Assembly: GCF_016865255.1 (NCBI RefSeq)
Contig: NZ_CP033381.1
Coordinates: 620,001 to 684,000, forward strand
Length of the DNA stretch: 64,000 nucleotides
DNA from: Methylomonas sp. LW13
Lineage (GTDB): Bacteria > Pseudomonadota > Gammaproteobacteria > Methylococcales > Methylomonadaceae
Direction: 5' to 3'
The notes below the pieces were generated by a model. The model was not told where the DNA came from, ran no database searches, and saw only the letters and a list, made by a program, of their open reading frames with translations. Shown piece by piece: positions 5,406-30,795 of this stretch. The position numbers were made by a program, and so were the translations under genes. Numbering within the stretch: position 1 is the stretch's first letter; each line of letters starts with the position of its first letter.

Positions 5406-6518
5406 TCATTCGTTCGACGGTTTGACCGTTTTCAATTTGACATCATAAACATTCATCATCGAAGCCGTTCGGTGTCCACTCGCATCTAGTTTATTGCCTG
5501 TTGTATCGCTAACACCTTTACGTTTAAGGTCATGAAAAGTGAAAGGCACCCAATTAATGCCTCTTTCTTCAGCTGCTAATTTGGTGGCAACCGTTATTCG
5601 TCCCATAGCCGTTTTAAGACTATCAACTACGATTTTGTCGCCGGTACGTTCACTAATAATGATATGCCTATCCTCGGCACGAATCGGATGAGGCTGTTTT
5701 CGATCTGACAATATCCGGTTTCTTGTTGCAACTGCAAAATCCCACGCATTACGTAGTCGCGGATTCCATTCTGTAATATTGTCACGAGATCCTTTGCGAC
5801 GCTTAATTAATAGGCCTTCCGGCAATTCATTGGCATCGGTAAGATCCAGTACTTCCGACAAACGCATACGGCAAAGATAGGCAATTTCCATTGCTGGCCA
5901 GAGATACCAATAATTTGACTCTTGAGCGATCTTGAGCATAAATTCGTAATCACGATCTTCGGCGTAATGTTGGCGTGGTTTGATTGATAGCTTTTTCACA
6001 CCTAACGTAGGATTGAATTTAATTTTTTCATATTCGTATGCCCATGAAAAAACTCGTTTTATGTATGCAAGCTCTTTATTTGCTCTGCTTTCCGAAGATT
6101 CACCGCGGGTGTCTCGGTATTTTCTAACGAGACCCACTGTCCATTTAGTGACTGGAAGCTCACCAAGAGTGTCATTCGTTGAAATTTTGCGACCACAGAT
6201 ATGCTGATGACAATCTAGATAATCTTTTTGCGTTGATGTAGCCAATTTGCGCCAGATGGGTGTTAGCTGGAAATCGAGACTGATTGATGCGAATGTAGCC
6301 GCCATGGGAGCATTCAGGCTTTCGTATGCTTGCCAAATTTCTGCCAAAGATGATTTTGGACCGATCAATCGCTTTGAACGCCATTTCCCAAGGTCTGGAT
6401 CTTTGTATTTATACATCCATTTACCACTACCTGACTTATCCCACCAGACACCGGTCGGCAGTTTTCTGGCATCAATGTTGGTTGGTACTACAGCCGTTCG
6501 AGCGGGACCTTTAGGCAT
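5406..6518 (-). CDS. int: Tyrosine recombinase (site-specific integrase)
   Basis: The protein has 370 residues with the layout of a tRNA-targeting phage/ICE integrase. An N-terminal AP2/SAM-like part (WWDKSGSGKWMYKYKDPDLG, then a helical core-binding domain) is followed by the catalytic domain. Its Arg lies in YLCRMRLSEVLDL, the His-x-x-Lys/Arg box in FHDLKRKG, a second box in DASGHRT, and the nucleophilic Tyr in MNVYDVK. It would join the element to the tRNA-His gene whose 3' end is 72 bp away, and excise it together with a directionality factor. The gene for the likely factor lies 6 bp upstream. Transcription comes from the side of the FlhDC-like genes, so those activators might drive it. 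No second att copy was seen, so the far end is probably outside the window. Confidence 0.88.
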   Translation of the reverse strand: MPKGPARTAVVPTNIDARKLPTGVWWDKSGSGKWMYKYKDPDLGKWRSKRLIGPKSSLAEIWQAYESLNAPMAATFASISLDFQLTPIWRKLATSTQKDYLDCHQHICGRKISTNDTLGELPVTKWTVGLVRKYRDTRGESSESRANKELAYIKRVFSWAYEYEKIKFNPTLGVKKLSIKPRQHYAEDRDYEFMLKIAQESNYWYLWPAMEIAYLCRMRLSEVLDLTDANELPEGLLIKRRKGSRDNITEWNPRLRNAWDFAVATRNRILSDRKQPHPIRAEDRHIIISERTGDKIVVDSLKTAMGRITVATKLAAEERGINWVPFTFHDLKRKGVSDTTGNKLDASGHRTASMMNVYDVKLKTVKPSNE

Positions 6519-6524: not shown

Positions 6525-6737
6525 TTAATCGATAAAATCGATTACCTCTTGATTGGCGTCTGGGGGATCAAATTTTAATCCCATGGCGGCATTAATTGCA
6601 TCTATCGTAGTGAAAATTTTACCCCCTTGCCCGTATAAGTAACGGACACCATTTTTTCTTAGGCATCGCTCAATATCACCGGGTCTATCGTAACCAGTGG
6701 CTATTTTCAGTTGATCAATAGAAACAAGAGTTGTCAT
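6525..6737 (-). CDS. DUF4224-like small protein, probable excisionase
   Basis: A 70-residue protein whose core, LKIATGYDRPGDIERCLRKN followed by GVRYLYGQGGKI, resembles the phage DUF4224 family. That family is found beside integrases and has a short helix-turn-helix-like fold. It ends 6 bp before the integrase start on the same strand, the usual place for a recombination directionality factor. DNA binding and an excisionase role are inferred from size and position. A regulator of int is the alternative. Confidence 0.6.
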   Translation of the reverse strand: MTTLVSIDQLKIATGYDRPGDIERCLRKNGVRYLYGQGGKIFTTIDAINAAMGLKFDPPDANQEVIDFID

Positions 6738-6833: not shown

Positions 6834-7319
6834 TCAACTTATTGACTGTTTTAAAGCGGTTTTACAAACACAACACCGCTCCAGCGACTTTTCGCTGCCC
6901 AAAATGATCAATACCGCTGAATAACAATGACCACATTCCGTCATCAGCAATTTTTTATTTCTCAAGTCTCGTGCCACCAACCATGCCGTGGTGAAATCGA
7001 GGTTGCCACTGGGCAAGGAAATTTTAAAAAAATCGAATGCCTGGATAACGTTATCAATTTCGCCGTGACTGTTTTCGGCTTCAATTGCACGAAATATCTT
7101 GGCGAAGAGCGTGGCTTCCTTGTAGCGTTTTACGTTGTGCGTCAAGCCACGAATTGACTCTTTGATGGGGCCCGAACTACCGGATCGCCCTAGAATCTCC
7201 TTGTAAGTGGCCTTTATCAGTTCTCTGGGGATGGTAGTTTCGCGGACAATTACCGCAATTCTGGCTTGGCGTTGAATCAGGGTAATGGCCAACTGATACT
7301 GTTTTAGCGTTTTGATCAT
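6834..7319 (-). CDS. FlhC-like transcriptional activator subunit (pair 1)
   Basis: A 161-residue protein starting at the ATG at 7319, which has a strong GGAGG 8 nt upstream. The ATG at 7334 overlaps the preceding gene and lies in its last codons. The N-terminal half (ITLIQRQARIAVIVRETTIP, RELIKATYKEILGRSGSSG) has the helical pattern of FlhC. The C-terminus carries two zinc-binding pairs, C129-x2-C132 and C149-x2-C152, as in the FlhC Cys4 site. The middle is divergent and lacks the GMLP motif. It follows the DUF4325-FlhD gene with 4 nt between, so the two products probably form a heteromer like FlhD4C2. FlhC-like proteins control transfer in SXT/R391 (SetC) and IncA/C (AcaC) elements. Confidence 0.68.
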   Translation of the reverse strand: MIKTLKQYQLAITLIQRQARIAVIVRETTIPRELIKATYKEILGRSGSSGPIKESIRGLTHNVKRYKEATLFAKIFRAIEAENSHGEIDNVIQAFDFFKISLPSGNLDFTTAWLVARDLRNKKLLMTECGHCYSAVLIILGSEKSLERCCVCKTALKQSIS

Positions 7320-7323
7320 CTTT

Positions 7324-7926
7324 TTAGCCTCCATGATTCAAGCCCTCCCTTAACGTCAGCAACACATCAACGGCGGTATGTTGCTTGCGATTCATGTACT
7401 CAAAAAAATGATTTGAAATCCTTGGCGCAAAACACAGCCAGCCCGATTGAGCGATATGCTCAATGTCCTCAATTGACAAGCGACCAATGGCCTCAATTAA
7501 CGCCTTATCCGAAATGCCCAACATAAAACCAGCGAACAGAGGGTTATCTCGACAGAGATCACGGGCTTTGATAAGCCATAAACAATTCAACGTCGTTATT
7601 TCTTGGTCAGCACTCTGAGCTTGTGCGCGCTCCAAACAATCAAAATAATCGTCCAATTCACCCATGGCAGACTGTATGATTTGCCTGACGTGGGAGGACA
7701 GGTTTTTTATCTGCAACCATTGATTTAAATAATCCGCGCCAAATTCGTTCGTCAACGGGCACAATAACGCCTGGCAAAAATGCGCGGTAACCTGCTCGAC
7801 GTTGACAAAGTCAAGGATTAAAGGTTGATGGTTGAAAAAGCATTCTCGTGCCAGACGGGCTAAATTTTTTCCTTCCGCCGCATCCAGCTGGGTCCGAGAT
7901 TGAATTGACTGAACTAATAAATACAT
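7324..7926 (-). CDS. DUF4325 (STAS-like)-FlhD fusion protein (pair 1)
   Basis: A 200-residue protein of two parts. Residues 1-90 resemble the STAS-like DUF4325 family: the strand LILDFVNVEQVT, the helix FCQALLCPLTNEFG and the segment IKNLSSHVRQIIQSAM. Residues 113-185 resemble FlhD: NCLWLIKARDLCRDNPLFAG, then FMLGISDKALIEAIGRLS and IEHIAQSGWLCFAPRI. This aligns with the FlhD pattern of LL-AQ helix, FRLGI, L-x3-L and AE-x5-F-R. FlhD proteins are usually about 100-120 residues and stand alone, so the N-terminal domain is an addition. DUF4325 is related to anti-sigma-antagonist STAS folds and could sense a partner or nucleotide. The gene precedes a FlhC-like gene and follows a second flhDC-like pair. 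Function as an activator subunit is inferred. Confidence 0.62.
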   Translation of the reverse strand: MYLLVQSIQSRTQLDAAEGKNLARLARECFFNHQPLILDFVNVEQVTAHFCQALLCPLTNEFGADYLNQWLQIKNLSSHVRQIIQSAMGELDDYFDCLERAQAQSADQEITTLNCLWLIKARDLCRDNPLFAGFMLGISDKALIEAIGRLSIEDIEHIAQSGWLCFAPRISNHFFEYMNRKQHTAVDVLLTLREGLNHGG

Positions 7927-7944
7927 TATGACTCTCCTTGGCCG

Positions 7945-8571
7945 TTAGTAACGGTCAAGACGTATCGCCAAAGTTTTGCCGGCATTTTGTGAAAATGGCC
8001 GCGAAATTCGATGTTTACTCGCTACGCTGCCTGTCTTGTTTTCGCATACGGGACAGCGGGCAGCGTGTTGATCTTCTTGGCGGGAGATCAGGAATCGCGC
8101 TTGACAGCAAAGGCACGTCGCAAAATGCAATGCAGAGGCATGAAATTGTCTTGTCAGTTGCCATGCTCGATTGATATCCAACACTCTGTGGTGTTCGAAT
8201 CCTGCCTCCCGGCTGCACGGCTTGGGATTGTGAGCAACGATGCGGCAGTACAATGCGTATGCATTGCAAAATTGCAACCCAAACTCAGTACCATTGGCAC
8301 GAACGGACGCATAATCCTGAATCAATCCCAAAAATATCGAGGCGTGCAGATTGTTAATGGTTGAACGGCCTATCCAGTGTGGATCCCAAGGCAGCATGCC
8401 TTTAATCGGTGCTTGGTGTTGCGCAAGCCAGTAAATGCGGGTGGCTGTTTTTCGTTTGATACCGCAAAGAGCACAAACCACTGGTGTTCGGGCGCCGTAC
8501 TCGAACAATGTCTTTGCCAACATCAGTTCAGCGCCAAAATGCGACAAGTCAACGAAGCCACCGTTATCCAT
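7945..8571 (-). CDS. FlhC-like transcriptional activator subunit (pair 2)
   Basis: A 208-residue protein. The start at 8571 overlaps the end of the FlhD-like gene by 8 bp; the longer frame to 8616 would run deep into that gene. It is the most FlhC-like of the three: residues 56-84 read IKGMLPWDPHWIGRS, then NNLHASIFLGLI, which matches the conserved GMLP-x-W-NIHAS core of FlhC. Zinc ligands are visible as C153-x2-C156 and C173-x2-C176. FlhC with FlhD activates sigma-70 promoters. In conjugative elements the same family switches on tra, int and xis genes. Its stop is 18 bp before the next gene, so pairs 2 and 1 look like one operon leading to xis and int. Confidence 0.8.
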   Translation of the reverse strand: MDNGGFVDLSHFGAELMLAKTLFEYGARTPVVCALCGIKRKTATRIYWLAQHQAPIKGMLPWDPHWIGRSTINNLHASIFLGLIQDYASVRANGTEFGLQFCNAYALYCRIVAHNPKPCSREAGFEHHRVLDINRAWQLTRQFHASALHFATCLCCQARFLISRQEDQHAARCPVCENKTGSVASKHRISRPFSQNAGKTLAIRLDRY

Positions 8572-8848
8572 GATGATCACCCTGATCATGAGCATCATGA
8601 ACCAGCAAGGCCGCATGAGCGGCGGCTGAAACCGGGTGGTTACCCAGTGGCAGCAAACTGATCACGGCGCGGTTAATCGCCGCCTGTTCTTTAATTTGTT
8701 CCAGCGACAAATCGGCTACATGATCGACCGTCTCCGGAATGACACCAAACCGCCAGGCGGCTTCCATGGGATTGCTGCGAGCACATTCTCTCAATAGCAT
8801 CAGATACTGAAAATTCAGTTGCGTCAGATCGTCTTCTAGGGTGGCCAT
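8564..8848 (-). CDS. FlhD-like transcriptional activator subunit (pair 2)
   Basis: A 94-residue protein with the FlhD core LTQLNFQYLMLLRECARSNP, AAWRFGVIPETVDHVADLSL and EQIKEQAAINRAVISLLPL. FlhD-type proteins lend DNA-binding specificity and dimerise with FlhC. The ATG at 8848 has a purine-rich AGAGAGAAGAG just upstream. The His-rich tail (HDAHDQGDHHG) overlaps the flhC-like start by 8 bp, which suggests coupled translation. It is the first gene of a minus-strand run that ends with the integrase, and it diverges from the transglycosylase gene across a 309-bp control region. Confidence 0.72.
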   Translation of the reverse strand: MATLEDDLTQLNFQYLMLLRECARSNPMEAAWRFGVIPETVDHVADLSLEQIKEQAAINRAVISLLPLGNHPVSAAAHAALLVHDAHDQGDHHG

Positions 8849-9157
8849 GCTCTTCTCTCTAATGAATTACGACATGGGGCAATACTAAAAGACTGGTTTT
8901 GTAATCGTCACGTGCGGAAAGTGGGTGATTTTGGGGTACTTTCCGCGCAAAGCCTTGCAGAATATGGCTTGGCAAGGTGTTAGGCATTGTTTCAGCTATA
9001 AAAAGTGCTTGACAGTGCGTAACTGATTGTATTTTCAAGGAATTGTTTTTATGGAGATCTATAGGAGGCGTAATTAGGTCGAAAGAAGGCCTTTTTTGAT
9101 CGCTCGAAATAGTGAGTTTTTCAGTAGACTCGGGCAACCTTACCTGTCACCTCTACT
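8849..9157. promoter_or_regulatory. Divergent control region between two activator operons
   Basis: This 309-bp gap separates the minus-strand flhD/flhC-like run from the plus-strand transglycosylase-flhDC run and must hold promoters for both. It contains two clear inverted repeats: GCGGAAAGT/ACTTTCCGC (8914-8946) and CCTTGC/GCAAGG (8953-8977). A 92-codon minus-strand ORF spans it (8859-9137) but looks fortuitous. Operator function is inferred. Confidence 0.6.
8914..8946. promoter_or_regulatory. Inverted repeat, candidate operator
   Basis: Perfect 9-bp arms GCGGAAAGT (8914-8922) and ACTTTCCGC (8938-8946) are separated by 15 bp, so equivalent points are about 24 bp (two helical turns) apart. 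It lies 66 bp upstream of the flhD-like start. This geometry fits a dimeric regulator. Confidence 0.5.
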
Positions 9158-9790
9158 ATGAACATTGTCGATTTGAAATCCGGTTTCCGATGGCTATGCG
9201 CCGCTAAACAGCATCATCTCAATCCACTGCCGATTTTGCTGAGCTTTATGGTCTGCAGTGCATCGTGTTTAGCCCATGGCAATGTCAGCCAACAGACACG
9301 AGCGACTAGCGCCGCAAGCACGCTACAAAATACGCTTTGGTGGCAGATTGCAAAGCAGCACCATTTGGATCCTTACATACTGTATGCGGTTGCCTTAAAA
9401 GAATCCGCGAACGATGCCGATCCGACCGCAGTAAAACCCTGGCCATGGGCACTTAATAAATCCGGACAATCCTTGATGCCAGCCTCGCAGCGGGAGGCCC
9501 ATGCCTTGCTCAAGCAATCGATAGACGAAGGCAATCGGTTGGTAGATGTGGGGTTAATGCAAATCAATGTCCGCTGGCATGGCCACAGAGTGAGCGCGCC
9601 GGCGCAATTACTGGATCCGATTACCAATGTACAAATAGGTGCCGAACTCTTAGCAACCGCCATTGGTTCAGCCCCGCATGACTTGGCGTTAGGGATTGGT
9701 CGCTACTATAGCTGGAAGGATGAGAAGGCCGCCATCGCCTACGGACAAAGTGTGATGGCCATAGCCGACCGAGTGAAGCAGGTGATTTGA
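9158..9790 (+). CDS. Lytic transglycosylase, conjugation-associated
   Basis: A 210-residue protein with an N-terminal hydrophobic export segment (LPILLSFMVCSASCLA). The SLT/GH23 domain runs from about residue 60: the catalytic Glu is in YAVALKESAND, and the motif VGLMQINVRWHG is diagnostic. It would cut peptidoglycan glycan strands in the periplasm to let the mating apparatus through. It lies 1 bp before an FlhD-like gene. As far as I recall, an slt gene next to the master activator genes is also seen in IncA/C plasmids. The start at 9158 gives an unusually long N-region; the ATG at 9248 is an alternative. Enzyme family is firm, timing of expression is inferred. Confidence 0.82.
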   Translation: MNIVDLKSGFRWLCAAKQHHLNPLPILLSFMVCSASCLAHGNVSQQTRATSAASTLQNTLWWQIAKQHHLDPYILYAVALKESANDADPTAVKPWPWALNKSGQSLMPASQREAHALLKQSIDEGNRLVDVGLMQINVRWHGHRVSAPAQLLDPITNVQIGAELLATAIGSAPHDLALGIGRYYSWKDEKAAIAYGQSVMAIADRVKQVI

Positions 9791-9791
9791 G

Positions 9792-10106
9792 ATGGAGGAT
9801 AGCCTCTATCATCTGCAATTGGATTATCTGCTGTTAGCACGGGAAATGGTGCTGTCCGGACAAGAAGAACAGGCGATGTTTAGCTTGGGATTAACGCCAG
9901 AAGCCCTGGGTATCCTGAAAAAATTGCAGGTGCAGCAAATTAGGGAGATAGCTCGGCGCGAATGCCTGGCCTTTACCCCTAGATTCAATGCCAGCTTTTG
10001 GGGGCGTTATCTTCAGGTCGATCAGTCAGCGCACGAGGGAGATGCGTGTGATAGCCAGGCGCGTGATTTGCTCATGCTGCTCACAGGATCAGGCGATATC
10101 GCATGA
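9792..10106 (+). CDS. FlhD-like transcriptional activator subunit (pair 3)
   Basis: A 104-residue protein with a clear FlhD pattern: LQLDYLLLAREMVLSGQEEQ, AMFSLGLTPEALGILKKLQV and IREIARRECLAFTPRFNASF. This is close to the FlhD consensus YLLLAQ, MFRLGI and AE-x5-F-RF. It starts 1 bp after the transglycosylase stop and overlaps the next FlhC-like gene by 4 bp. It therefore belongs to a plus-strand slt-flhD-flhC operon. The product likely works with the next gene as an AcaD/SetD-type activator. This is the third FlhD-like gene in 3 kb. Confidence 0.74.
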   Translation: MEDSLYHLQLDYLLLAREMVLSGQEEQAMFSLGLTPEALGILKKLQVQQIREIARRECLAFTPRFNASFWGRYLQVDQSAHEGDACDSQARDLLMLLTGSGDIA

Positions 10107-10660
10107 GTGCTTGGTACACCTACGAAGACCGACTCAGAGATCATTATCTTGCCTATCAATTGCTGAAGCGAAAATTGCGGCCGACGTTCGTTAAAGCGCA
10201 TATTAAAACGATCAGCCAACATGAGCTTAAGGCCATGTACTATGCCATTCACTTTCACGGCCCCTCCAACGGACAACTCCCGCTGGCTAAAACCATTCCG
10301 GCATCACGCGAGTCGTTTCTATATCTGACGTTATTTCTGTCCATCTATCAAATCACCTGCAAGGTTAATCCTCAGTCGCGCATGGACGTGCCGGCCATTT
10401 TGTTTACATGGGATTATTTCCATCGATCCTATGAACACCTTATCCCCGAAGAGCGACCTTACGGCAAAGTTCGACCCGCCAACTTCAACGAAGCCTGGGT
10501 TTTAGCGCAAGGTATGCGCGAAGGACAGGTTGCCTTGAAATATTGCCCCCGCTGTCGACATAATTTTGCGGTATTCTACGAGAGCAAATTCCGGCCGGTT
10601 TGCCAGTTTTGTGAATTGGCAGATGCAAACGTTAACTCATTTCGCCCAAACTCGTCTTAA
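10103..10660 (+). CDS. FlhC-like transcriptional activator subunit (pair 3)
   Basis: A 185-residue protein that follows the FlhD-like gene with a 4-bp ATGA overlap. The N-terminal helices (DHYLAYQLLKRKLRPTFVKA, then TISQHELKAMYYAIH) follow the FlhC pattern, although the GMLP motif is replaced by SNGQLPLAKTI. The C-terminal zinc site is complete: C148-x2-C151 and C167-x2-C170 in KYCPRCRHNF and VCQFCE. It is more divergent than pair 2. Expected role: DNA-binding half of a heteromeric activator of element genes. No terminator was seen between it and the downstream efflux regulator, which has its own inverted repeat. Confidence 0.7.
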   Translation: MSAWYTYEDRLRDHYLAYQLLKRKLRPTFVKAHIKTISQHELKAMYYAIHFHGPSNGQLPLAKTIPASRESFLYLTLFLSIYQITCKVNPQSRMDVPAILFTWDYFHRSYEHLIPEERPYGKVRPANFNEAWVLAQGMREGQVALKYCPRCRHNFAVFYESKFRPVCQFCELADANVNSFRPNSS

Positions 10661-19301: not shown

Positions 19302-22300
19302 TTAATAGTTTATGCGGCCACGCGCCCGATTGTAATTTCCAATTTGATCGATTAAGTCCATACGACCTTGACCAGCCGCGCTTTTAAGTAGCTTGGCGAT
19401 ATCATTACCATCGATACTGCCTTCCTCATCTATCAACTGGCTTTTAGCAATACCAAGTGTGCCGCCATACTCTCCGGCAACAGCAATCCCCGCAAAGGCT
19501 TCAAACATCGCGGCACGATAATAAGTTTGCTGAGTCGGAGTTAATTTATCTGCAACTTCAATTACTCTTTGATCTGCCCATACTTGAGAAGCCTCCTTAA
19601 ATCCAGAATACGATTGGTTTGAAGCGTATTTTATTGAATCCCAAATTCCCATTCCTTGCGCTTGAGATTGTTGAACAAATTCTGCAAACTCCTTGATATG
19701 TCGGTTACTAACCGATCCTAATGCTTCCAAATTTTTCGCGGAGTTATAAAGACTGCCCCCTAGATAATTGTAAGAAGCCTCTGCGGCCGAAGGAGTTTCA
19801 TTGGCAGCCGCCGCAATCGATTGCCTAAAATGCTCCGCTTTGACATTCGCCAATTGCCCAAAGCCTTCTCTTGAATTTTGTTCACGCTCAGCTAAGTTAC
19901 GATCGTGCTGTGCTACGACACGGGCTTCGCCGCCGGCAATTTTTCCCGTCGCTGAACCAAGCTTTGCCTGAGCGCGCTGATTTAGCGATTCGGTTTCAGC
20001 GCGTGGGTCTTTGAGATGAGCCTGTTCGACGGAGGCTTGAACCTTACCAGTTTCCGGCGCATTGGCTTTCAGCGATTCATTCCGGCTGGCATTCCAGGTT
20101 TGACCGGCCTGCGGCGCATTAAAAGCATCGCCCAACAATTGGTAACCCGAGATGTGCGCCTGGTGCGATTGTTGATCATCCAGCGTGCGGTAACTGGGTG
20201 ACGAAAAACCGGTCAATAACGACATGCCGGCGGCGGCATAGGCTTGATCGGCATCGCTAATCCAACCGGCGGCTTTCCATTGCGAGGCCAGCCGTTGCGT
20301 ATCGCCACGCAGACCATATCGATCCAGGGTTTGATCCAGGCGCTCCATCAATGTGTTGTCATTTGCGATTTTGTAACCCGTTTCCGTCGCGCCGAAACTG
20401 GCTTGCGTTCCAAAGCGTTGTTGAGCCGATAGGGTTTGCTGATAGGATTCGCTAGCAGATACTGCGTCGGATGCGCTGTGTTGCAACGAGGACAACGATT
20501 GATGTTGCAAGCCCATCGACGCCACATTTCGGGTGCCGGTTTGCGCATCCAGTGCCAGGCTTTTTGCCAAGCCGGCTTGATAGCCCTGACTGTCGTTGAC
20601 GGTTTGACTGATGTCGGCGGCAATGGCATCGGACTTGTCCTGACTGACTTTGAAGTCGTTTTGTAACCGTCCGGAGATCGCGCCGCTGAGTTGGTCGTTA
20701 CCGAGCTTGGCCCCAGCGTTGGCACTGCCGGCCACCAACGCCGAGAACTGATCGGCGGAGATACCGGTATCAGCGTGTTTCTTGGCAAAGGCTTCACCGA
20801 ACTGACGGTTATAGGCATCGGTATAACTGGAACTGCTGGCGATTTGATTGCCCAGCGACCGGCTGTCAAAGGCATCGCTGGTGATGCTGGCCGATTTCGA
20901 TGCCGTAGACGACACACTGTGCATGAAGCTGCTGGTCGCCTGTTCCGAAGCGCTGTAAGCCGACGATACCGCCGCACTCATGTCCTTGCCGGCGGTAAAG
21001 GTCGGCAGCACTTTGTCGACACCGGTTTGGGTAACTGCTGAAAGTGGACTGTATTGATGTTGCGCCTGGGCATTCAAAACCGGCGCCGGGCTGATCACAT
21101 CCGGCGTGGCGATTTTTTCGTTCACGTAATCGCCGCCATCCATCCGCCCCAGGAAATGGGTGGCCGTCACCGCGCCACGGTAGATCAGCATCAAGGTAAT
21201 GGCCGGCGTCGATGCCGCCAGCATGCCGCCGATCGACAACCATTGCTGCAATTCCATATCCAGCTGGTAAATACCCATCATCGACGGCAGATTATAAGTG
21301 GCCGTGGTCAATGCCGCCATTTTGCCGGCGGCCGACATCTGGATGAATAGGTTGATGACTGCGAGAATCGGCATCCACAATTGGATCCACAGCAACATTG
21401 AGAAGTAGCCGATATTCATCCGGATGCCGACATTACCCAGCATCACCACGAAGGCCATAATCGGTGCTATGGCATAACTCAAACCTTCGATAAACGCCAT
21501 CATCGGCCGGACGATCTTGGCAAACAGGGTTTGCTCGGCTGCCCATTGGGTATTGCGTTGCTGTATGGCTTGTTCAACCATCGCTGCCTTATTCCAATGT
21601 AAGCCGTCTTCATGCCGGCCAATGACGCCTTTCTCGAACATCGGCATGATGGCCGACATCAGCATGTAATCGGCGGCATCGACCACACCGGGCCCTGCCA
21701 GCGCATCAAAGGCATCCTGGATTTTCGGCACCGTGTCGGCTGCCGCCGGCACGCCCAGAGTGGGTTGCAACAACCCTTCCAGCGCCGTCGCAAAATTGCC
21801 ATTGGCCACCACGCTCAAATCGGCCCAAGCATCGGTACAGGTTTTGGTTTGCGGTTGACCGCCGACAAAGATTTGGGTCATGTAGATATCGGAATCAAAC
21901 CTGATCGCATTCAACGGATCGACATCGCGCAAGATGGCATCTACCGATTTCTGGTTTAGATCGACACCGGTCAAGGTGCATTCCCGCACGTAATTGGCAA
22001 ACGAGGTCTCCATGTCGCTGCCGGCATTCGGCACGTTGGCCGCGCCCAGATTAACCCGCGACAACAAATTCTTCCGTACCGCCGTCAAGGTCTGCAAACT
22101 GTCGGCAAAGCCATTGCCGGTCATGGATGGCGTGCCAAAGCCCTGTTCGAACAGACGTGTAGTGCGATAGCCCATGTTCGACATCACGCTACCGACCACC
22201 GCCGGACCCAATGGTACGTTGTCTACCACCACCACGCTGCCGGTATAGGCATCCTCAATCGACACCCGCACTGACGGCGCATACAGCATTAGCCACAACA

Positions 22301-22499
22301 CATACGCCAACAATAAATCCTGATAACGAATGCCGCGACCATCCCATTGCAACAAGGCTCTAAGCATGACGATGATGACACCGATCAAACCACCCACGGC
22401 TGCCGCGGTACGGTAATCGCCGGTTCCGGAAATCATCGCGATGGCATTGAGGACGGCTTGCAGATAGGCGGAGTCGCCCACGGAAAAGATTTCAAACAT
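19302..22499 (-). CDS. traG: Conjugal transfer mating-pair protein TraG
   Basis: A protein of 1,065 residues from the ATG at 22499 (MFEIFSVGDSAYLQAVLNAI). The upstream frame to 22613 lacks family similarity. The N-terminal TraG_N domain has several membrane helices (VGGLIGVIIVMLRALLQW, then LLLAYVLWLMLYAP, and a block at about residues 355-460 with MAFVVMLGNVGIRMNIGYFS). The C-terminal half is Ser/Ala/Gln-rich and periplasmic. In F, SXT and IncA/C elements TraG stabilises mating pairs and is the target of entry exclusion. It follows traH by 61 bp in the conserved order traF-traH-traG. The C-terminal 350 residues are more polar than the F protein and may set exclusion specificity. Confidence 0.88.
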   Translation of the reverse strand: MFEIFSVGDSAYLQAVLNAIAMISGTGDYRTAAAVGGLIGVIIVMLRALLQWDGRGIRYQDLLLAYVLWLMLYAPSVRVSIEDAYTGSVVVVDNVPLGPAVVGSVMSNMGYRTTRLFEQGFGTPSMTGNGFADSLQTLTAVRKNLLSRVNLGAANVPNAGSDMETSFANYVRECTLTGVDLNQKSVDAILRDVDPLNAIRFDSDIYMTQIFVGGQPQTKTCTDAWADLSVVANGNFATALEGLLQPTLGVPAAADTVPKIQDAFDALAGPGVVDAADYMLMSAIMPMFEKGVIGRHEDGLHWNKAAMVEQAIQQRNTQWAAEQTLFAKIVRPMMAFIEGLSYAIAPIMAFVVMLGNVGIRMNIGYFSMLLWIQLWMPILAVINLFIQMSAAGKMAALTTATYNLPSMMGIYQLDMELQQWLSIGGMLAASTPAITLMLIYRGAVTATHFLGRMDGGDYVNEKIATPDVISPAPVLNAQAQHQYSPLSAVTQTGVDKVLPTFTAGKDMSAAVSSAYSASEQATSSFMHSVSSTASKSASITSDAFDSRSLGNQIASSSSYTDAYNRQFGEAFAKKHADTGISADQFSALVAGSANAGAKLGNDQLSGAISGRLQNDFKVSQDKSDAIAADISQTVNDSQGYQAGLAKSLALDAQTGTRNVASMGLQHQSLSSLQHSASDAVSASESYQQTLSAQQRFGTQASFGATETGYKIANDNTLMERLDQTLDRYGLRGDTQRLASQWKAAGWISDADQAYAAAGMSLLTGFSSPSYRTLDDQQSHQAHISGYQLLGDAFNAPQAGQTWNASRNESLKANAPETGKVQASVEQAHLKDPRAETESLNQRAQAKLGSATGKIAGGEARVVAQHDRNLAEREQNSREGFGQLANVKAEHFRQSIAAAANETPSAAEASYNYLGGSLYNSAKNLEALGSVSNRHIKEFAEFVQQSQAQGMGIWDSIKYASNQSYSGFKEASQVWADQRVIEVADKLTPTQQTYYRAAMFEAFAGIAVAGEYGGTLGIAKSQLIDEEGSIDGNDIAKLLKSAAGQGRMDLIDQIGNYNRARGRINY

Positions 22500-22560
22500 G
22501 GGCGACCTGCCTTTTAAACAACGAGGGAGAAAATCATCTTGGGGAACAGGGAATGAGCGT

Positions 22561-24018
22561 TTAAGGGCTTGGCCAAGCCACCCCAGACGCCGGCAATTGC
22601 GCCACGGTGCCATAGTGTTTCGGCTTCACGGTGGTCATCAATTGCTGGTAAAACGCCATCAAGGTTTGTGGGTTACCGTAGCGGCCGGCAATGGTGACGT
22701 ATTCGTCCTGGATTTGCTCCCTGGCATCCTTCAAGGCATCCATCAGCAATTTGGCGTAGGCATGGTCGTTCATGTGCGCCGCGGTCTGCACGGCATTGAG
22801 TAAATCGTTGACGATCAGTTGTGCCAATTCCAAGGCAATCACCGGTGCCGCTTCTTCGGCCCACAGTTTGGCAATGCCAGCATCTTCCCGTGCCAAGTTA
22901 TGGATCATGCCGCCGATGGCATCCGGCACGGTTTGCATGAAGGCTTTTTCGCTGTCGGTGATCTGGCCGCTGTTGGTTGAGAATTTGTAAATCAAGCCGT
23001 TGCCGGAATTCGCCGAACCCAACAGGATCTCCATCACCCGCTGCTTCAAGCCGACCAGATTGACATTTTGGACAATGGGTTTTAGACACTGATCGGCTTC
23101 GTGACCATCCGAACAGGTGTACATCCTGACGGTCTGATAACTGTTACCGGCATCGTTGCCGTACATCAAATCCTTGATCCGCAACACCGGCGGTGGGGCG
23201 CTGATGGCATTGTTTTCGCCTTTGCCGTCGGGCGCGGCTTGCGGGGCATCGACAATCACTGTACCGGAAATACTCATCGCCGCTTCCAGCAAACTGTTGC
23301 CGCCAAACCGAAACCAACCACCAGCATTTTGATTGACCAAGGCCCGCCAGACTAAATTGCCTTGAATGATCTTGGTCATGTCGGCCGGGTCGTTCTGCTT
23401 GATTTGCTGTACCGGATCGCCCAGGGTACTGGTATTGGTCCAGCTGGAAAACACATCCGATATGCCTTGGGTAAACGAGGCATTGGACAGATTGGTTTTG
23501 CTTTGCAGATCGAAGGCTTTGACCGTATCGTTGACCAAGCCTTGCGCTAACCGGCAGGAGTTGCTGAACATCTGGTTCATTTCCTGGATTTTCTTTTGCA
23601 GGTCGGTCATCACCGACGCACACCAGGGACACATGGCACCCACGGCCAACTGAAACGCATACCCTGCGGCATTGCCAGCCACATTACGCATCAATTGCAC
23701 AAACTGGTTGAAGTTGATGAAACTGAAGCTACCGGCAAACAAGTCGATACCGCCGCAGCCGGCGCTGAACGACGGCGGCACGAAGGAAACCAGGTTGGTA
23801 TTGGTGATGCCGTTGCGCGCCACCAGGCTGCCGCCGGTAATCACGCCGCGGCGCTGCCCCAAATGCGCGGTTGGGGCTGTGACATTGGTCATGGTGCCGA
23901 ACATGCTATCCATTTCCTGTTGCAGGTCGGCATAAGCAGGAACGGCACTCTCAACCAACAGAATCAATACTAATACCTGGCGATATGGGTAACGATAGCG
24001 AAATGAAAACGACATCAT
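22561..24018 (-). CDS. traH: Conjugal transfer protein TraH
   Basis: A 485-residue protein with signal peptide (VLVLILLVESAVPAYA). It contains the TraH core: GGSLVARNGITNTNLVSFVP, FSAGCGGIDLFAGSFSFI and a Cys-rich segment AMCPWCASVMTDLQKKIQEM. The family is periplasmic and takes part in pilus assembly and retraction in F-type type IV secretion. A coiled segment lies near residue 150. It overlaps traF by 4 bp and precedes traG by 61 bp. The repeated Cys residues suggest disulfides, which the thioredoxin-like TraF encoded upstream could form. Confidence 0.9.
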   Translation of the reverse strand: MMSFSFRYRYPYRQVLVLILLVESAVPAYADLQQEMDSMFGTMTNVTAPTAHLGQRRGVITGGSLVARNGITNTNLVSFVPPSFSAGCGGIDLFAGSFSFINFNQFVQLMRNVAGNAAGYAFQLAVGAMCPWCASVMTDLQKKIQEMNQMFSNSCRLAQGLVNDTVKAFDLQSKTNLSNASFTQGISDVFSSWTNTSTLGDPVQQIKQNDPADMTKIIQGNLVWRALVNQNAGGWFRFGGNSLLEAAMSISGTVIVDAPQAAPDGKGENNAISAPPPVLRIKDLMYGNDAGNSYQTVRMYTCSDGHEADQCLKPIVQNVNLVGLKQRVMEILLGSANSGNGLIYKFSTNSGQITDSEKAFMQTVPDAIGGMIHNLAREDAGIAKLWAEEAAPVIALELAQLIVNDLLNAVQTAAHMNDHAYAKLLMDALKDAREQIQDEYVTIAGRYGNPQTLMAFYQQLMTTVKPKHYGTVAQLPASGVAWPSP

Positions 24019-25031
24019 GGCGTACTCCCGAGATGCGCACTGCGTTGCAATGCCTGGATCAGCGATAGTGGATCTTGAGTGACCGCAGGGCTGATGCTAC
24101 CGGCGGCCGGTAACAACATCGGCGTGTTACGGATGCCCTGAGTGGTTTGGTATTGGGAGGCATCGATCCAACCGGCTTCCTTGGCCGCCAGCAGAATCCG
24201 ACCGGTAACTTCTTCTAACGACAACGCGCCTTGCGCCAACGGTACGATTTGCTTGGGCGGTTTCATCAGAAACAGTGCCGGGGTTTGTTCAACGCCCAAC
24301 ATTGCAGCCTGACCGTTATCACGTTTGAACTGACTGAAAAAGCCGTTCGGCATCGGTAAACCATCCAACGACACGGGATAGATTTTGAAGCCGTAGGCAT
24401 TTTCCAACATTGCCAGAATCGGCGCCTGCACATGGCAATAAGGACAATCAGACCGGAAGAAAAACAAAATGCCGGCTTGGGCGGCAATCGCCTTCAAGGC
24501 TTGTTCAGCTACCACACCGGCCTGATGATTGGCTTCATTGGCCGCATAGGTCGCCACTGGTCGGCGCACCGTCTCATCGAGTTGCGGATCCGACATCACC
24601 ACGTAACGGGCGGCGTTGGTAAAGCGCTCGGCTTTATCCATCATCACCCGTTGCAGGTAATAAAACGCGGCCACATTCTCGGGACTGGGATCGTCGATGG
24701 CCTGATTTAGGAAATGCTCCAGGTTTTGCTTCAACCAGGCCGAGGACAGGGGTTGGGGTTCTGCAGAGGGCTGGGCTTGGGTTTTTGGTTCAATTTCAGC
24801 CTGAACGACGCTGGGCTGTTTACTGTCAGGCTTGGGTTTTTCCTGATCGGCTTGACTATCGGCTTGGATGTTTTTGACCGGCTCCGGCAACACCTCATAC
24901 CAAAACCAGCCGCGCTGTTTGTCTTCGAAATACGATGCAGCCGGCCTGTCGACAGACGCATCCCCACAAACCGCCGATGTCGGCAGTAGCAGTACGAGCA
25001 AAAAGGGATGCAGCGCATGATTTGGGTTCAT
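24015..25031 (-). CDS. traF: Conjugal transfer protein TraF, thioredoxin-like
   Basis: A 338-residue exported protein (signal MNPNHALHPFLLVLLLPTSAVCG). Residues about 50-95 are Gln/Pro/Lys-rich and probably unstructured. The C-terminal half is a thioredoxin fold with active site SDCPYCHVQAP and a cis-Pro region (LGVEQTPALFLMKPP). F-type TraF proteins share this fold but often lack the CxxC; here it is intact, as in SXT and IncA/C TraF. It likely handles disulfides of secreted Tra proteins such as TraH. It is the first gene of the traFHG operon, and the hairpin-rich region upstream must carry the promoter. Confidence 0.88.
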   Translation of the reverse strand: MNPNHALHPFLLVLLLPTSAVCGDASVDRPAASYFEDKQRGWFWYEVLPEPVKNIQADSQADQEKPKPDSKQPSVVQAEIEPKTQAQPSAEPQPLSSAWLKQNLEHFLNQAIDDPSPENVAAFYYLQRVMMDKAERFTNAARYVVMSDPQLDETVRRPVATYAANEANHQAGVVAEQALKAIAAQAGILFFFRSDCPYCHVQAPILAMLENAYGFKIYPVSLDGLPMPNGFFSQFKRDNGQAAMLGVEQTPALFLMKPPKQIVPLAQGALSLEEVTGRILLAAKEAGWIDASQYQTTQGIRNTPMLLPAAGSISPAVTQDPLSLIQALQRSAHLGSTP

Positions 25032-25068
25032 AGCTCAATTGTCTACGACACCCAAGACCTGGTCGTCA

Positions 25069-25098
25069 TCGAAATCGCGATAATTTTGGCGATTTCGA
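25069..25098. repeat. Perfect 10-bp inverted repeat upstream of traF
   Basis: TCGAAATCGC (25069-25078) and GCGATTTCGA (25089-25098) pair around a 10-nt spacer, 38 bp from the traF start. A related inverted motif (GATAATTTTGGCG and CGCCGAAATTATC) links this site with 25148-25158. Role as an oriT hairpin or an activator site is inferred. Confidence 0.6.
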
Positions 25099-25489
25099 CA
25101 AAGCGGTCGAAAAAAGTACCCCTGTGTGGTCGGTATCGACGAAACCGCCGAAATTATCCTCCTTTCGCAACCATGCCTCGGGCCCGAATCCCTAAAATCC
25201 GGCTCGGAGTTCCGAAATGTGCCGCAAAAACCTAACAACGCCTGGAAGGCTGAACGCCATGCGCAATCGGGCTTTAAGGGTTAGGCCCTGGCCATGACTA
25301 AACACGGAAAATCCTATTCAGGATTGTTGTCCAAAAGCCTGTATAGGTAAACACCACCGAAAATGTCGTGTAATCACGAACCGGCAAGCCCATGGCCTTC
25401 ATGGGTTAAGGCGCGGCGTGTTGGTATTAGGTCGTACCCTCGATTTTTGACGGTGCCGGAGGCATTGAATAGTCATCATCAAGCTCACT

Positions 25490-25535: not shown

Positions 25536-26006
25536 ATGAATTCGTTAAATGCAGAGCACGATGAATCGGCATTAGCCGATGAACGCGTGATTGAGTGGCT
25601 GGAAGCCCAAGTTGAGAGTTTGCATAGCCAAGCCCGCATGCTGGTCGATGATTATTGGCGACGCGTTAATCTGGAACGCAAAAAGCATCCTGCATCGCTA
25701 CGCGGCAGAATGGGGGTGCGCATTCGTCGGCGGGAAAGCGCTTATTCGTTCACCATCGAGTGGTTTCTGATCGCCTCGCTATCGATCGACGGCAAAACCA
25801 AACCGGTCACCCAGCACATCAAAAAAGGCAAAGGCTATCGCTATCCCTTGCAGCACATTCTGAAAAAAGAACCGGATTGGGAAGTCTCGCTAGTGGAGGA
25901 ATTTGAAAACGAGTTTGTCGATCTGCGCAAACAAATCGATTTATTGGGCAAGTTCCGCGATGCATTTCATCGCTGTCGGCAAAGTTTACGCGACGCTCTG
26001 GACTGA
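25536..26006 (+). CDS. MobI-like conjugative transfer protein
   Basis: A 156-residue soluble, charged protein: an N-terminal helix (RVIEWLEAQVESLHSQARML), a basic centre (RGRMGVRIRRRESAYSFTIE), and a C-terminal helix (DLRKQIDLLGKFRDAFHRCR). Size, the basic centre with an aromatic strand (TIEWFLIASLS), and position next to traFHG and a hairpin-rich gap resemble MobI of SXT/R391 and IncA/C, an accessory factor needed at oriT with the relaxase TraI. The identification is from pattern memory and is not secure. AAGGA lies 12 nt upstream of the ATG. traI itself is not in this window. Confidence 0.55.
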   Translation: MNSLNAEHDESALADERVIEWLEAQVESLHSQARMLVDDYWRRVNLERKKHPASLRGRMGVRIRRRESAYSFTIEWFLIASLSIDGKTKPVTQHIKKGKGYRYPLQHILKKEPDWEVSLVEEFENEFVDLRKQIDLLGKFRDAFHRCRQSLRDALD

Positions 26007-26131: not shown

Positions 26132-27448
26132 ATGGCCTATACACATAAGATCAGTGTCAACTACAACGATGTGGAAAGTGGTCATCGATATCGATTGCCT
26201 GCAATCTACACCGACAAAGGGCTGGTGATTTCGCATTTACGTTACTTGGCTTGGTATCACGAGAAAAGCGAATCCTGGAAGGAAAGATCTGTATTTTCCC
26301 TGCGTTTATTGATCGATTACATCAACGCTGTTCCAAAAATCAATAAAGCGAGTCAGTTGCTTAAAAACTTTACCCGAGCGTTGGTTACAGGAACAATTGA
26401 CTATGAGTTATTAACTGATCCATTAAACCTCTACTGGCGCCTGCGGGAATTACCTGACGCCAATACCATTCTCTTCCATATTACCCATTACACAGACTTC
26501 CTGGCATTACAGGATGGATATTCCGAAAACGGAATAAACCCATTCCGCGAATCAACTAATTGGGAAGAACGTCTTTATTGGTGCGCCTACTATCAGAAGC
26601 AAGCTAATGTATTCTTAAACCATCTCAGCAAAAAGAGCGAAGCATATGTTAATGCAAAACAAACAAGGCTTGTGGCTCCCATGCTGGTTCCGCATGTTAA
26701 ACAAGAAAAAACAGCCACATTTCCCGAAGAGCACCTGGATAATCTGCTAGAAAATGGCTTTAAAGTGAATGGAAAACAAGATTTTAGATCACAAGCCATT
26801 ACTATTTTATTAAACTATGGTGGTCTTAGAAAAAGCGAAGTTTTTCATCTTTATATATCTGATATAACGCTTCATCCAAACCATCATGACGAGGCTCTCG
26901 TCAGAATATATCATCCTCAATATGGAGCAGCCCCTGATCCTAAATTTAAAAATAGAATGGATTACTTGCAAGCAACTTCATCAGTAAAGCCAAGAAATAC
27001 CTATCGACTGAGCGAAAGGCGTTATGCTGGTTGGAAGAATCCACTACTGACAAGTAAATCGGGATTTTTCGATGTCATCTTTAACCCACCGGAAAAAGCG
27101 AAAGATTTTCTTATTGCTTGGATAAACTATCTGAAATACCAACGGGTTGAGCCAAAGTTGTCGCACCCATTTGCGTTTACAAATTCAATAGGCGAACCAG
27201 AAACCTTAAAAAATTATCAACGTAAACACCGTCGGGCTGTTGAAAGTATTGGATTAAAGTCAAAGAAAGAGCTTGGGACAACCGAACACGGGCATCGTCA
27301 CGCCTATGGTTATCGTGCAAGAAAAAGTGGGCTTAATCAAATAGAAATTCAAAAGGCCATGCATCATAAAAGCCCTCTTTCTTGTCTGGTTTATATTCAA
27401 CCAACAAGTGATGATATACGAAATAAAATGAAGAGTATTGAAAAGTGA
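26132..27448 (+). CDS. gmtY: Gamma-Mobile-Trio recombinase GmtY
   Basis: A 438-residue tyrosine recombinase. Active-site parts are visible in the C-terminal third: Arg in LNYGGLRKSEVFHL, His/Arg in TEHGHRHAYGYRARK, MHHKS and Tyr in LVYIQPT. The gene order of a recombinase of about 440 residues, one of about 900 and a protein of about 200, all overlapping by 4 bp, matches the described Gamma-Mobile-Trio (GMT) modules that carry defence and toxin cargo. Its start follows the mobI gene by 125 bp, so the module probably inserted here. The stop overlaps the GTG start of gmtZ. Base composition looks more AT-rich than the tra genes, fitting later acquisition. Naming rests on recall of the family and on synteny. 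Confidence 0.8.
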   Translation: MAYTHKISVNYNDVESGHRYRLPAIYTDKGLVISHLRYLAWYHEKSESWKERSVFSLRLLIDYINAVPKINKASQLLKNFTRALVTGTIDYELLTDPLNLYWRLRELPDANTILFHITHYTDFLALQDGYSENGINPFRESTNWEERLYWCAYYQKQANVFLNHLSKKSEAYVNAKQTRLVAPMLVPHVKQEKTATFPEEHLDNLLENGFKVNGKQDFRSQAITILLNYGGLRKSEVFHLYISDITLHPNHHDEALVRIYHPQYGAAPDPKFKNRMDYLQATSSVKPRNTYRLSERRYAGWKNPLLTSKSGFFDVIFNPPEKAKDFLIAWINYLKYQRVEPKLSHPFAFTNSIGEPETLKNYQRKHRRAVESIGLKSKKELGTTEHGHRHAYGYRARKSGLNQIEIQKAMHHKSPLSCLVYIQPTSDDIRNKMKSIEK

Positions 27449-30186
27449 ATATCAGTGTCAATAAATTACCTGATGTTTTTGAAAGGCCCGCAACACTGGC
27501 TGAATTAAAGCTTCTCTGCAAGCGGCTCGGGATAAACAATTCAGTTGAATACCGAAAGAGATATCGCGACATCCCAGGTTTAGTCGCGCACCCTGAACGG
27601 GTTTATGCCGACGAATGGGTTAGTTATTGTGATTTGTTTGATATTCCTGAGTTTCTTAGTTACAAAGAACTCAAGAAAACAATAAAACCGCTGGGCCTTA
27701 AGTCTCAGGACGACTACAAAAAATTTGTTAAAAACTCCAATAATCCAAATTTTCCTATCGGCCCCGAAGGTGTTTACAGTCAAGAGTGGGAAAACTGGTA
27801 TCGATTTCTAGGAAAAGAGGAGCCATTCAAGCCACAATTTATACCTGCTAAATATAAAGTATGGGCGGAAAAGATTGATGAGTTCATGAAACAAGCCCTG
27901 GGAGGAGGTACCAAAATTACTCTCCTATGTCGCTTTGTCAGAATATTCATCGAGAAACACGATAAAAGCGCTACGCCCCTGGAGTTACTGACAAAAAAGA
28001 AAGTGGTCATCAAGCCTTTTCGCGATGAGTTAGAAAAGCTTCCCACAGATAACATGCGTAGAAATATCATTTTGGCCGTCAATGAGTTTCTCGATTACAT
28101 TATCGAAAATGATTTAACGCTTGAAGATGATGAGACTGGCGAAATTGTCAGAGTTATGGAGGCTCGAAATCCGTTTTCACTATTGTCAACTGACCAAAGC
28201 ATCTCTAACCCCGTCAGAAGTGAATCGACCAAGCCTTGTTTGCAGTATCACTTCGTGCGCAAAGCTCAGTCGTGGATCGTTCCTGATAAAGCCAGAGATT
28301 TCAAAGATCTAACTCATCTGCATCAGTTCGACACCGACTGGATCAAGATCTCGCAAAAGCAGATTGATTATAGCGATCCTGATTGCGTGGTACGAAAGCA
28401 AGGTAATCAGTATTTTATTTGGTCGCCGATTGACTGGATACATACTTATGCCCTTACCAAGGTTCCGCTTAGGGGAAGACAAATTGCGTACAACGATTCT
28501 GGCGAAGGTGATCTTGAAATCGCCGACATCGATGAAAAGGGCGCCATCCTCTGGGTTAAAAACACCGGATCATTAGCAGGCACCACGAAAAGCCAATCTT
28601 TTGTTAAAAAACTCGCGGATGGGAATTTGGGAATGTTTGTAACCACAAACAAGACCAATAACCATGGTTTAGGTTATTCGATACCTTGGATACCGGAAGA
28701 TTTAGCCTATTGGCTGGTAAAGCTTAGAAAATGGCAACAAAAATACAATGCCATTGACAAACCAACACCCTGGAGTGTTTGCAAGAGAACTCACCTCAAC
28801 GAACTCCAATTGAAAGCCAAAGGCGTAAATTGCTTTTTGTTCAGAGCGTTCGCTGATTGTGAGCCAAAAAACGTCGGATCAGCGTTGACCAATCGCCTTG
28901 CAGCCGCGCTTCACCATATTCAGCCATCTAATTTGCAACTATCGGAATTAAACGGTAGTAACTATTACCTCTCAAATTATCGATCAAAATATACCCCGCA
29001 TTCGATGCGCGTCAGCCTGATTACGGCTTACGTTATGGAAATGGGGATGCCCATTGAAATCGTTATGAAGGTCGTCGGACATTCGTCTATCGTCATGTCA
29101 ATTTACTATTGCAAGGTATCGCAACAGGATATCCGTCAGCGCCTGGAAGAAGGGGAGAAAAGGGCTTTACAATCAAAAGCTCAAGCCACACAACGCCTGA
29201 TTGAGCAAAACAAACTGGAATCAGTCAAAAATCAGTTGATCGCAAAAAATGAAGACTTACTTGCGTCGCTAACCAACGAAGTTCCTGCTGGAAACTTCAT
29301 ATTTCGGGACTATGGTATTTGCCCATTTGCTGCCTCACGTTGTGAAGACGGCGGAGAAGTGATTGGAGGCACCCAGGTCAATGCGCCTACTCCTTCTGGT
29401 TATCTTGGCATGCAGAATTGTCTGCGATGCCGCCATTTCATTACGGGGCCAGCGTTTCTTGGTGGTCTACTTTCTCTGACGAATGAAATCTTACTCCAAT
29501 CCAATGAGCAAGCTGAAGTGTGTTGCCGGCTTCAGGAAAAAATCGATCAAACGACTGAAGCCATTGAGGAACTGGAGAGACAAGAATACGTTTCGAATCT
29601 AAAAAAGCTGGATTTCGATGCCACTAGGCGAGATCAACTAGAAGTACGGCAGAGAAAACTAGAGTCCGAATACGAAAGCGCGGCGAAAAAGATGGATATG
29701 CTGTTGTGCGATTTGCAAGCCGCTTATCAGTTAGTTAAGCTGTCACAATCCATTGTCAACGAGTCAAAGACTGAAGAATCAAAATCGCTTTCTCTTCTGA
29801 AAATGCCCGAATCCGAGATGCGAATTGAAATTGCAGAAGTGTCCCATTTTCAGCAGCTTCATGAGGTGTGTGAAAATGCCACAATCTATGAGTCTGCAAA
29901 TCCAGCAAGCGCCATTGCTCCAAGATCGCAATTATTGGACAGGATGGCACTCTTCAATGACATTTCACCACGGTTATTCACACTCAGCAAAGATGAACAG
30001 CTTGAAGTTGGTAACCAACTTGTAGCCCTTTTCAAAGCCCGATTGAAGTCTTGGAGCCGGGTAGATGAACTTGTCAACTGCGAAATAAGGATTGATGATC
30101 TGCTAGGCCAGGAGAAAATAGAACGGTCAGAAATTGAACTCATCACTATGTCGCAAATACAAATTTCAACCCGAGTTTCGTCATGA
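27445..30186 (+). CDS. gmtZ: Gamma-Mobile-Trio integrase GmtZ
   Basis: A 913-residue protein that starts at a GTG overlapping gmtY by 4 bp. The N-terminal part has two repeats of a short plant-like/integrase repeat (LAELKLLCKRLGINNSVEYR and YKELKKTIKPLGLKSQDDYK). A core-binding part follows, then a catalytic domain with HSMRVSLITAYVMEMG, VGHSSIVMSIYY as His and Tyr boxes near residues 515-555. After it comes a Cys pattern (ICPFAASRCEDG, then MQNCLRCRHF) likely binding zinc, and a long coiled coil (about 680-760). With GmtY and GmtX it should mobilise the module and its cargo. It is the largest of the three, as expected. Confidence 0.8.
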   Translation: MNISVNKLPDVFERPATLAELKLLCKRLGINNSVEYRKRYRDIPGLVAHPERVYADEWVSYCDLFDIPEFLSYKELKKTIKPLGLKSQDDYKKFVKNSNNPNFPIGPEGVYSQEWENWYRFLGKEEPFKPQFIPAKYKVWAEKIDEFMKQALGGGTKITLLCRFVRIFIEKHDKSATPLELLTKKKVVIKPFRDELEKLPTDNMRRNIILAVNEFLDYIIENDLTLEDDETGEIVRVMEARNPFSLLSTDQSISNPVRSESTKPCLQYHFVRKAQSWIVPDKARDFKDLTHLHQFDTDWIKISQKQIDYSDPDCVVRKQGNQYFIWSPIDWIHTYALTKVPLRGRQIAYNDSGEGDLEIADIDEKGAILWVKNTGSLAGTTKSQSFVKKLADGNLGMFVTTNKTNNHGLGYSIPWIPEDLAYWLVKLRKWQQKYNAIDKPTPWSVCKRTHLNELQLKAKGVNCFLFRAFADCEPKNVGSALTNRLAAALHHIQPSNLQLSELNGSNYYLSNYRSKYTPHSMRVSLITAYVMEMGMPIEIVMKVVGHSSIVMSIYYCKVSQQDIRQRLEEGEKRALQSKAQATQRLIEQNKLESVKNQLIAKNEDLLASLTNEVPAGNFIFRDYGICPFAASRCEDGGEVIGGTQVNAPTPSGYLGMQNCLRCRHFITGPAFLGGLLSLTNEILLQSNEQAEVCCRLQEKIDQTTEAIEELERQEYVSNLKKLDFDATRRDQLEVRQRKLESEYESAAKKMDMLLCDLQAAYQLVKLSQSIVNESKTEESKSLSLLKMPESEMRIEIAEVSHFQQLHEVCENATIYESANPASAIAPRSQLLDRMALFNDISPRLFTLSKDEQLEVGNQLVALFKARLKSWSRVDELVNCEIRIDDLLGQEKIERSEIELITMSQIQISTRVSS

Positions 30187-30791
30187 CGCCCAGTGAGATG
30201 TTAGAGAAACTCAAACAAGACGCGACACCAAGAGCAGTGGCCACATTGGAAGCTATTTTTGAAATCTGTATCGAGCAAAAGGAAAGAGGCATAAACGATT
30301 TTTCGATCGCTACCATTGCTAAACTGGGTTACAAGCGAGGGGTGCCGAGAGCACAAAGTCTTCGAAATAAGACGGGGGAGTGTTATCGAGCACTGATCAA
30401 ATGCTTTGCCGACGCCAATGTAGCCGGGGCCAACGAAAAGCCACAGGTACAATCAAAAGAGGACTGGATAGAAGAAATATCCAATCCCAAGCACAAACTG
30501 CTTGCCCGAATCCAAGCTGCAGAACTCTCCGCTGCTCAATCTAAAATTCGCGAATTTGTTCCACCAGGAACTCGAATTGACGTATACGACCATAGAGGAT
30601 CGCTTGATGACTCTGAGGCTAAACTAACTTCGCAGGAACGAAGGGCGCTCGAATACATTATCTCCAAAGAATTCCAGCAAAAATGGAATTTTTCCGAGAC
30701 CGTTTACGGGGAGCTGGTTGATTCTAATAACAAAGTAGTGCTGAAAGCAGCAACGGTAGACGCCGTCAAAAAAGCACTTAATCACCTGTGA
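30183..30791 (+). CDS. gmtX: Gamma-Mobile-Trio protein GmtX
   Basis: A 202-residue protein overlapping gmtZ by 4 bp. The N-terminal half (FSIATIAKLGYKRGVPRAQS, then NKTGECYRALIKCFAD) looks like a helix-turn-helix segment. The C-terminal half (LTSQERRALEYIISKEFQQK) is helical. GmtX is the third, non-catalytic member of GMT modules and probably assists DNA recognition; its role is unknown to me in detail. It lies 4 bp before a greB-like gene, which may be the first cargo or an extra component. Confidence 0.75.
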   Translation: MTPSEMLEKLKQDATPRAVATLEAIFEICIEQKERGINDFSIATIAKLGYKRGVPRAQSLRNKTGECYRALIKCFADANVAGANEKPQVQSKEDWIEEISNPKHKLLARIQAAELSAAQSKIREFVPPGTRIDVYDHRGSLDDSEAKLTSQERRALEYIISKEFQQKWNFSETVYGELVDSNNKVVLKAATVDAVKKALNHL

Positions 30792-30795
30792 ACCG

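Follow-up and report, generated by a model that had tools for sequence, protein, structure and literature searches.

SXT/R391 elements insert in prfC. A single activator pair drives xis, int and tra of SXT according to the available text of PMC4344509, and the accessible part of PMC4542580 names one pair per element type for SetCD, AcaCD, SgaCD, AqaCD and AsaCD. Two related pairs are able to act in one cell, namely SgaCD (the FlhDC of SGI1) and AcaCD of IncC, which lie on two elements and act at the same sites in the available sections of PMC5058578. In ICEclc, an integrative element, the heteromeric activator BisDC works with positive feedback (PMC7423338, text available in part). An FlhC gene in a Methylococcus genome is mentioned, without the context reported here, in the accessible portion of PMC8527097.

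The window analysed here comprises 64,000 bases (620001-684000) of the 5.23-Mb Methylomonas genome and covers one end of a conjugative element, element A, which is inserted in tRNA-His and carries three FlhD/FlhC-like pairs. Pair 1 (slt-D1-C1) occupies the SetDC position of SXT-type elements: the order slt-setD-setC-eex-traG-traH-traF of the SXT/R391 element R997 corresponds to its context, and MobI and F-type transfer genes are common to both. The same context, slt-acaD-acaC, is present in the IncC plasmid pECY53 (its record types it as MOBH and MPF_F), and the pair of plasmid pUP202 lies in it as well. An slt-D-C unit next to traG, accompanied by MobI and MOBH transfer genes, is found for pair 1 only; in element A, cargo separates C1 from traG. 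In contrast to SXT, there are three pairs here, the excisionase operon lacks the palindrome named box I below, and insertion is in tRNA genes. Moreover, AcaCD is a single pair on a plasmid, and AcaD resembles two tandem FlhD-like repeats (by eye, L082:4333-4941), whereas D3 of the window has a STAS-like domain instead. Among the open-licence literature matches listed, including PMC4207636, PMC4344509, PMC5058578, PMC7423338, PMC13381706 and PMC8527097, the available text describes neither a three-pair element nor a STAS-FlhD fusion.

Elements and gene context

Element A is ~135 kb long, because its ends are marked by a 26-bp repeat from the tRNA-His end, which occurs at 625308 and 760469 (genome coordinates). 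A tyrosine integrase gene (5406..6518, minus strand; weak Pfam Int_N and Phage_integrase matches below cut-off) lies 72 bp from the tRNA-His gene. The transfer genes traF-traH-traG (19302..25031, minus) and mobI (25536..26006, plus; Pfam MobI 1.6e-30) are recognized by Pfam, and a MOBH TraI is encoded just beyond the window. The genome holds four such elements (A-D), and direct comparison finds all six regulator genes in each. The ends were delimited for three of them: B is marked by a tRNA-Asn repeat (~104 kb) and D by a 15-bp repeat of tRNA-Ser (~121 kb), so that A, B and D, with their tRNA repeats, depart from the prfC insertion of SXT/R391. The slt-D1-C1 and D2-C2-D3-C3 operons adjoin in A and D; they are ~97 kb apart in B and ~109 kb apart in C, close to opposite ends. 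In SXT/R391 the CI-like repressor SetR lies beside setDC, and in A and D the divergent D2-C2-D3-C3 operon (the tetrad) occupies that place.

Several other gene groups are present in these elements. Judged from the reading frames alone, the stretch directly behind C1 (10930-18367) appears to encode a response regulator and a histidine kinase, along with outer-membrane and RND metal-efflux-like proteins. At 26132-31278, a further tyrosine recombinase gene heads a run of genes that ends with a GreA/GreB-like protein, and adjacent KAP NTPase and SIR2-like proteins at 34219-37991 form a possible defence cluster. An open reading frame of 3103 aa spans 49852-59163. All four elements have counterparts of a group (L046:3108-8009) in which genes for a CbbQ-type AAA ATPase, a DUF3150 protein and CobT/VWA proteins lie close to ssb and YqaJ exonuclease genes.

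Regulator proteins

The first-pass annotation had described three FlhD/FlhC-like pairs at 6834-10660, each with an FlhC-like partner bearing a Cys4 site, and both descriptions hold. All six proteins match the FlhD or FlhC family by Pfam or profile: D1 (9792..10106, plus; Pfam FlhD 6.1e-9), C1 (10103..10660, plus; Pfam FlhC 7.3e-7), D2 (8564..8848, minus; Pfam FlhD 2.3e-7), C2 (7945..8616, minus; Pfam FlhC 1.7e-20; likely true start ~8571 by alignment), D3 (7324..7926, minus) and C3 (6834..7331, minus; Pfam FlhC 9.5e-17). Four cysteines are invariant in the C1, C2 and C3 alignments. D3 alone falls below the Pfam FlhD cut-off. Sequence profiles, together with a predicted model of modest quality that matches solved FlhD and STAS folds, support an FlhD-like fold for part of it and identify it as a fusion of a STAS-like (DUF4325) and an FlhD-like domain, which was absent from the earlier description. 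A contig of Methylomonas sp. SURF-1 is identical to the window across D3. All three units thus have the paired FlhD- and FlhC-family genes of an FlhDC-type activator. In contrast, a ParB domain is part of BisD and DUF2857 part of BisC; Pfam finds neither in C1-C3, D2 or D3 at E<=1, and D1 matches DUF2857 only at E=0.085.

E. coli FlhDC belongs to the same fold family. Unlike it, the FlhD (nine) and FlhC (11) matches of this genome at E<=0.001 all lie inside the four mobile elements; at this threshold Pfam FlhC detects only three of the four own C1.

Operon layout and the excisionase slot

As previously read from the sequence, the genes form two opposing operons. On the plus strand, slt (9158..9790; lytic transglycosylase, Pfam SLT 8.7e-9) precedes D1 and C1; on the minus strand, the tetrad runs into a small excisionase-like gene (6525..6737), a xis-like recombination directionality gene of DUF4224 type (Pfam E=0.0049, below cut-off). 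A small DNA-binding, excisionase-like gene lies 3' of the tetrad in all four own elements, and a small DNA-binding gene is found behind C3 in 16 of 20 loci fetched from other genomes (judged by eye). Of eight such genes scanned, three were own and five from other elements; seven match AlpA, HTH_17 or DUF4224 (one at no better than E=0.022), and the eighth is without any match. The regulators persist while the type of excisionase-like gene changes between elements.

In elements B and D (L019, L022, L021, L048), an integrase-like gene (putative in D) lies at the far end of the element from the tetrad and shares its strand. By geometry alone, transcription of the tetrad operon could continue across attP into int in the circular form of B and D.

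Promoter elements

Box I emerged from a motif search over 26 hand-chosen operon heads of the four elements as the one repeated palindrome besides ribosome-binding sites. It lies upstream of traF and traL and, divergently, of traI/c685 and ssb/c742; these four places are occupied in every own element. A, B and C have a weaker second copy between traF and mobI. In the window, the traF copy is at 25067..25100 (minus strand) and the weaker one at 25137..25170. A held-out site was ranked the best place by the other three sites of its element in 15 of 16 tests. Three kinds of arm occur, one in A, one in D and one common to B and C. With a profile made from strong sites only, true sites score 40-52, and the stretches upstream of the tetrad, slt and int and between C3 and the excisionase gene contain none in the four elements (best score 1.0). 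The first-pass annotation had proposed comparing the upstream regions of tra, int and slt: box I is present at tra and absent at slt and int. Unlike the SetCD/AcaCD operator, which is shared by tra, xis and int, box I of the four elements is therefore not common to all three.

Across 24 promoter instances, the mean hexamer score is highest at +27 from the box I centre (A-rich) and has a second peak at +39, which is the -10; none of 5000 permutations reached the peak at +27, the orthologous promoters not being independent. In 19 of the 24 instances, the three best hexamers include a -10-like one at 39-40 bases from the centre. Box I is thus a candidate common operator before the tra operons at a fixed -10 distance, and this spacing agrees with class II SetCD/AcaCD promoters. 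In other genomes, 30 of 31 TraI matches were examined, and a box I-like palindrome lies ~185-212 bases 5' of the relaxase match in 20 loci, three of which have palindromes that barely exceed background (11 of 16 pairs). A clear box I at traI is absent from the other ten, which include other plasmid types; in G024, G052 and one locus of G199 the pairs are present, yet no clear box I was seen at traI. pUP202, with a single FlhC by Pfam, carries a long palindrome of its own at traL and at mobI/parM, both divergent sites, and a weaker one at traF, with none at slt.

The D2 operon promoter has its own conserved element, box II, an inverted repeat (8912..8948, minus) distinct from box I. A -10-like TAGTAT follows at 8882..8887 (minus), and 26 of 28 D2 promoter rows, some of which represent the same genome twice, have TAGCAT or TAGTAT at the corresponding position. 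The box II profile, which the own promoters fed, has one clear best place per own element, the D2 promoter; scored as a strict palindrome, box II is low in most promoters and strong in a few. Its CCCAAAA centre resembles the AcaCD core GCCCAAAATGGGC given in the available text of PMC5058578. The slt promoter has a conserved stretch, the tentative box III (9072..9098, plus, by eye), before TARACT; the -10-like TAGACT of the window is at 9125..9130 (plus), and TAGACT/TAAACT recurs 5' of slt in relatives, by eye. Box I varies among elements whose box II remains more alike, and this suggests two DNA specificities.

Among 16 elements, box I distance tracks pair 1 when the tetrad is held constant (partial r=0.55, p=0.0002), and it does not track the tetrad when pair 1 is held constant (r=-0.19, p=0.95). 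TraI relatedness tracks box I better (0.86). With TraI controlled, pair 1 explains nothing of box I (r=0.004, p=0.48); the value for C1 alone is 0.175 (p=0.067), and 0.228 (p=0.017) when slt is also controlled. Because the TraI control removes the effect of pair 1, linkage alone could explain the agreement between box I and pair 1. As read from these comparisons, box I is part of a transfer backbone that includes pair 1, and linkage is indistinguishable from recognition. The palindromes of pUP202, by contrast, favour pair 1 as the reader.

Distribution and history

A search of the GTDB collection for the D3 pattern gave 15 loci, 13 of them in Methylococcales genera; the remaining two are in one MAG labelled simply as gammaproteobacterial, and their contig positions agree with genome G017, of the same family as the source. 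Within the family, 32 of 201 genomes match the D3 profile, and these belong to 13 of 29 genera (53 match rows, including four own). In the order sample the profile matches 39 of 201 genomes, seven of them from another family with weak matches, five of which span the FlhD part only. In the class sample of 369 genomes it matches the own genome only. C1 and MOBH TraI are present in all 15 tested of the 32 D3-positive genomes. Twenty loci were fetched from the 49 non-own match rows, and D2, C2, D3 and C3 are all present in 18; one of these, L110, has a complete tetrad but with D2 ~2 kb away. All three pairs are present in 17 of 18 compiled elements, the eighteenth being without D2/C2 within the stretch fetched.

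The maximum-likelihood tree unites the four own C1 with support 100 (79 with pUP202 included), C2 forms a clade with support 96 that joins E. coli FlhC at 95, and the C3 clade has support 100. The placement of C1 relative to SetC/AcaC has supports of only 23-79. The D2, D3 and C3 trees largely mirror the branching of C2, with L060 shifting. Because the C clades are separate and the trees of the tetrad largely repeat one another, the three pairs are old and inherited together and not recent copies.

The megaplasmids YRD-M1 and AM2-LC have the tetrad near tra genes, and pair 1 was not found on them (on YRD-M1 by Pfam FlhC alone, the search that missed one own C1); the tetrad would thus not serve solely for excision. 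AM2-LC also has an extra D3-C3-like pair apart from its tetrad (L075:24440-25508).

Proposed control and alternatives

What is observed are the genes, how they are ordered and conserved, the STAS fusion in D3, excisionase-like genes that exchange between elements, and separate promoter elements. The reading that we prefer, with a probability of roughly 0.5, is an SXT/IncC-like family of Methylococcales in which the single FlhDC-type switch is divided among three old pairs, pair 1 acting on transfer and the tetrad on excision and on itself, and then on pair 1. Pair 1, the SetDC/AcaDC counterpart, would most likely activate the transfer genes by binding box I. D2-C2 and the STAS-fused D3-C3 form one operon leading into the excisionase gene, which would be co-transcribed with them. 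The tetrad operon most likely activates itself via box II, and excision would then be committed separately, with positive feedback. The tetrad probably then switches on pair 1, so that excision would come first and transfer second; a signal may enter via the STAS-like domain of D3. The first-pass annotation had suggested split control of excision and transfer, or a relay and mixed heteromers. Separate control is supported at the sequence level by the separate promoter elements, the tetrad operon running into the excisionase gene, and the position of pair 1; a relay between the pairs is plausible. A more elaborate form is tentative and rather unlikely in full: three private activator-operator pairs in relay, in which the STAS-fused D3C3 senses a signal, the tetrad locks on via box II, makes the excisionase and then induces pair 1 via box III, and pair 1 induces the transfer genes via a fast-evolving box I that prevents cross-activation between co-resident elements.

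The tetrad may alternatively be the true master activator of transfer too, with D2C2 or D3C3 reading box I and pair 1 minor. The two megaplasmids, where tetrads lie near tra, speak for this. The reading is nonetheless unlikely, as pUP202 combines one pair-1 type activator with a tra palindrome, box I does not track the tetrad, and a common box sought at the tra genes of AM2-LC was not found. That the pairs are redundant, any one of them driving every promoter of the element, is less likely still: the pairs are all of the FlhDC family and sit together in one element, and SGI1 FlhDC substitutes for AcaCD at the same sites in the available text of PMC5058578, but the C clades are old and separate, all three pairs are kept in 17 of 18 elements, and the promoter elements differ among the operons.

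It is doubtful, though worth weighing, that boxes II and III are repressor operators, or box III an attenuator, with the tetrad switched by de-repression. Box III of the window overlaps a terminator-like stem, and many D2 promoters have a GGGACA-like hexamer ~17 bp 5' of the -10 (by eye). On the other hand, box III is not rich in GC in elements B and C, and the distances from box to -10, ~42 for box II and ~40.5 for box III by eye, are near the 39-40 of box I. The preferred reading, a switch divided among three pairs, places this family apart from the studied FlhDC-type activators of conjugative elements, in which one pair runs excision and transfer jointly. The presence of three old pairs, of a STAS-FlhD fusion and of promoter elements that are separate suggests a decoupling of the two steps here. 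Moreover, four elements in one genome with three kinds of box I offer a natural system for how related activators stay specific.
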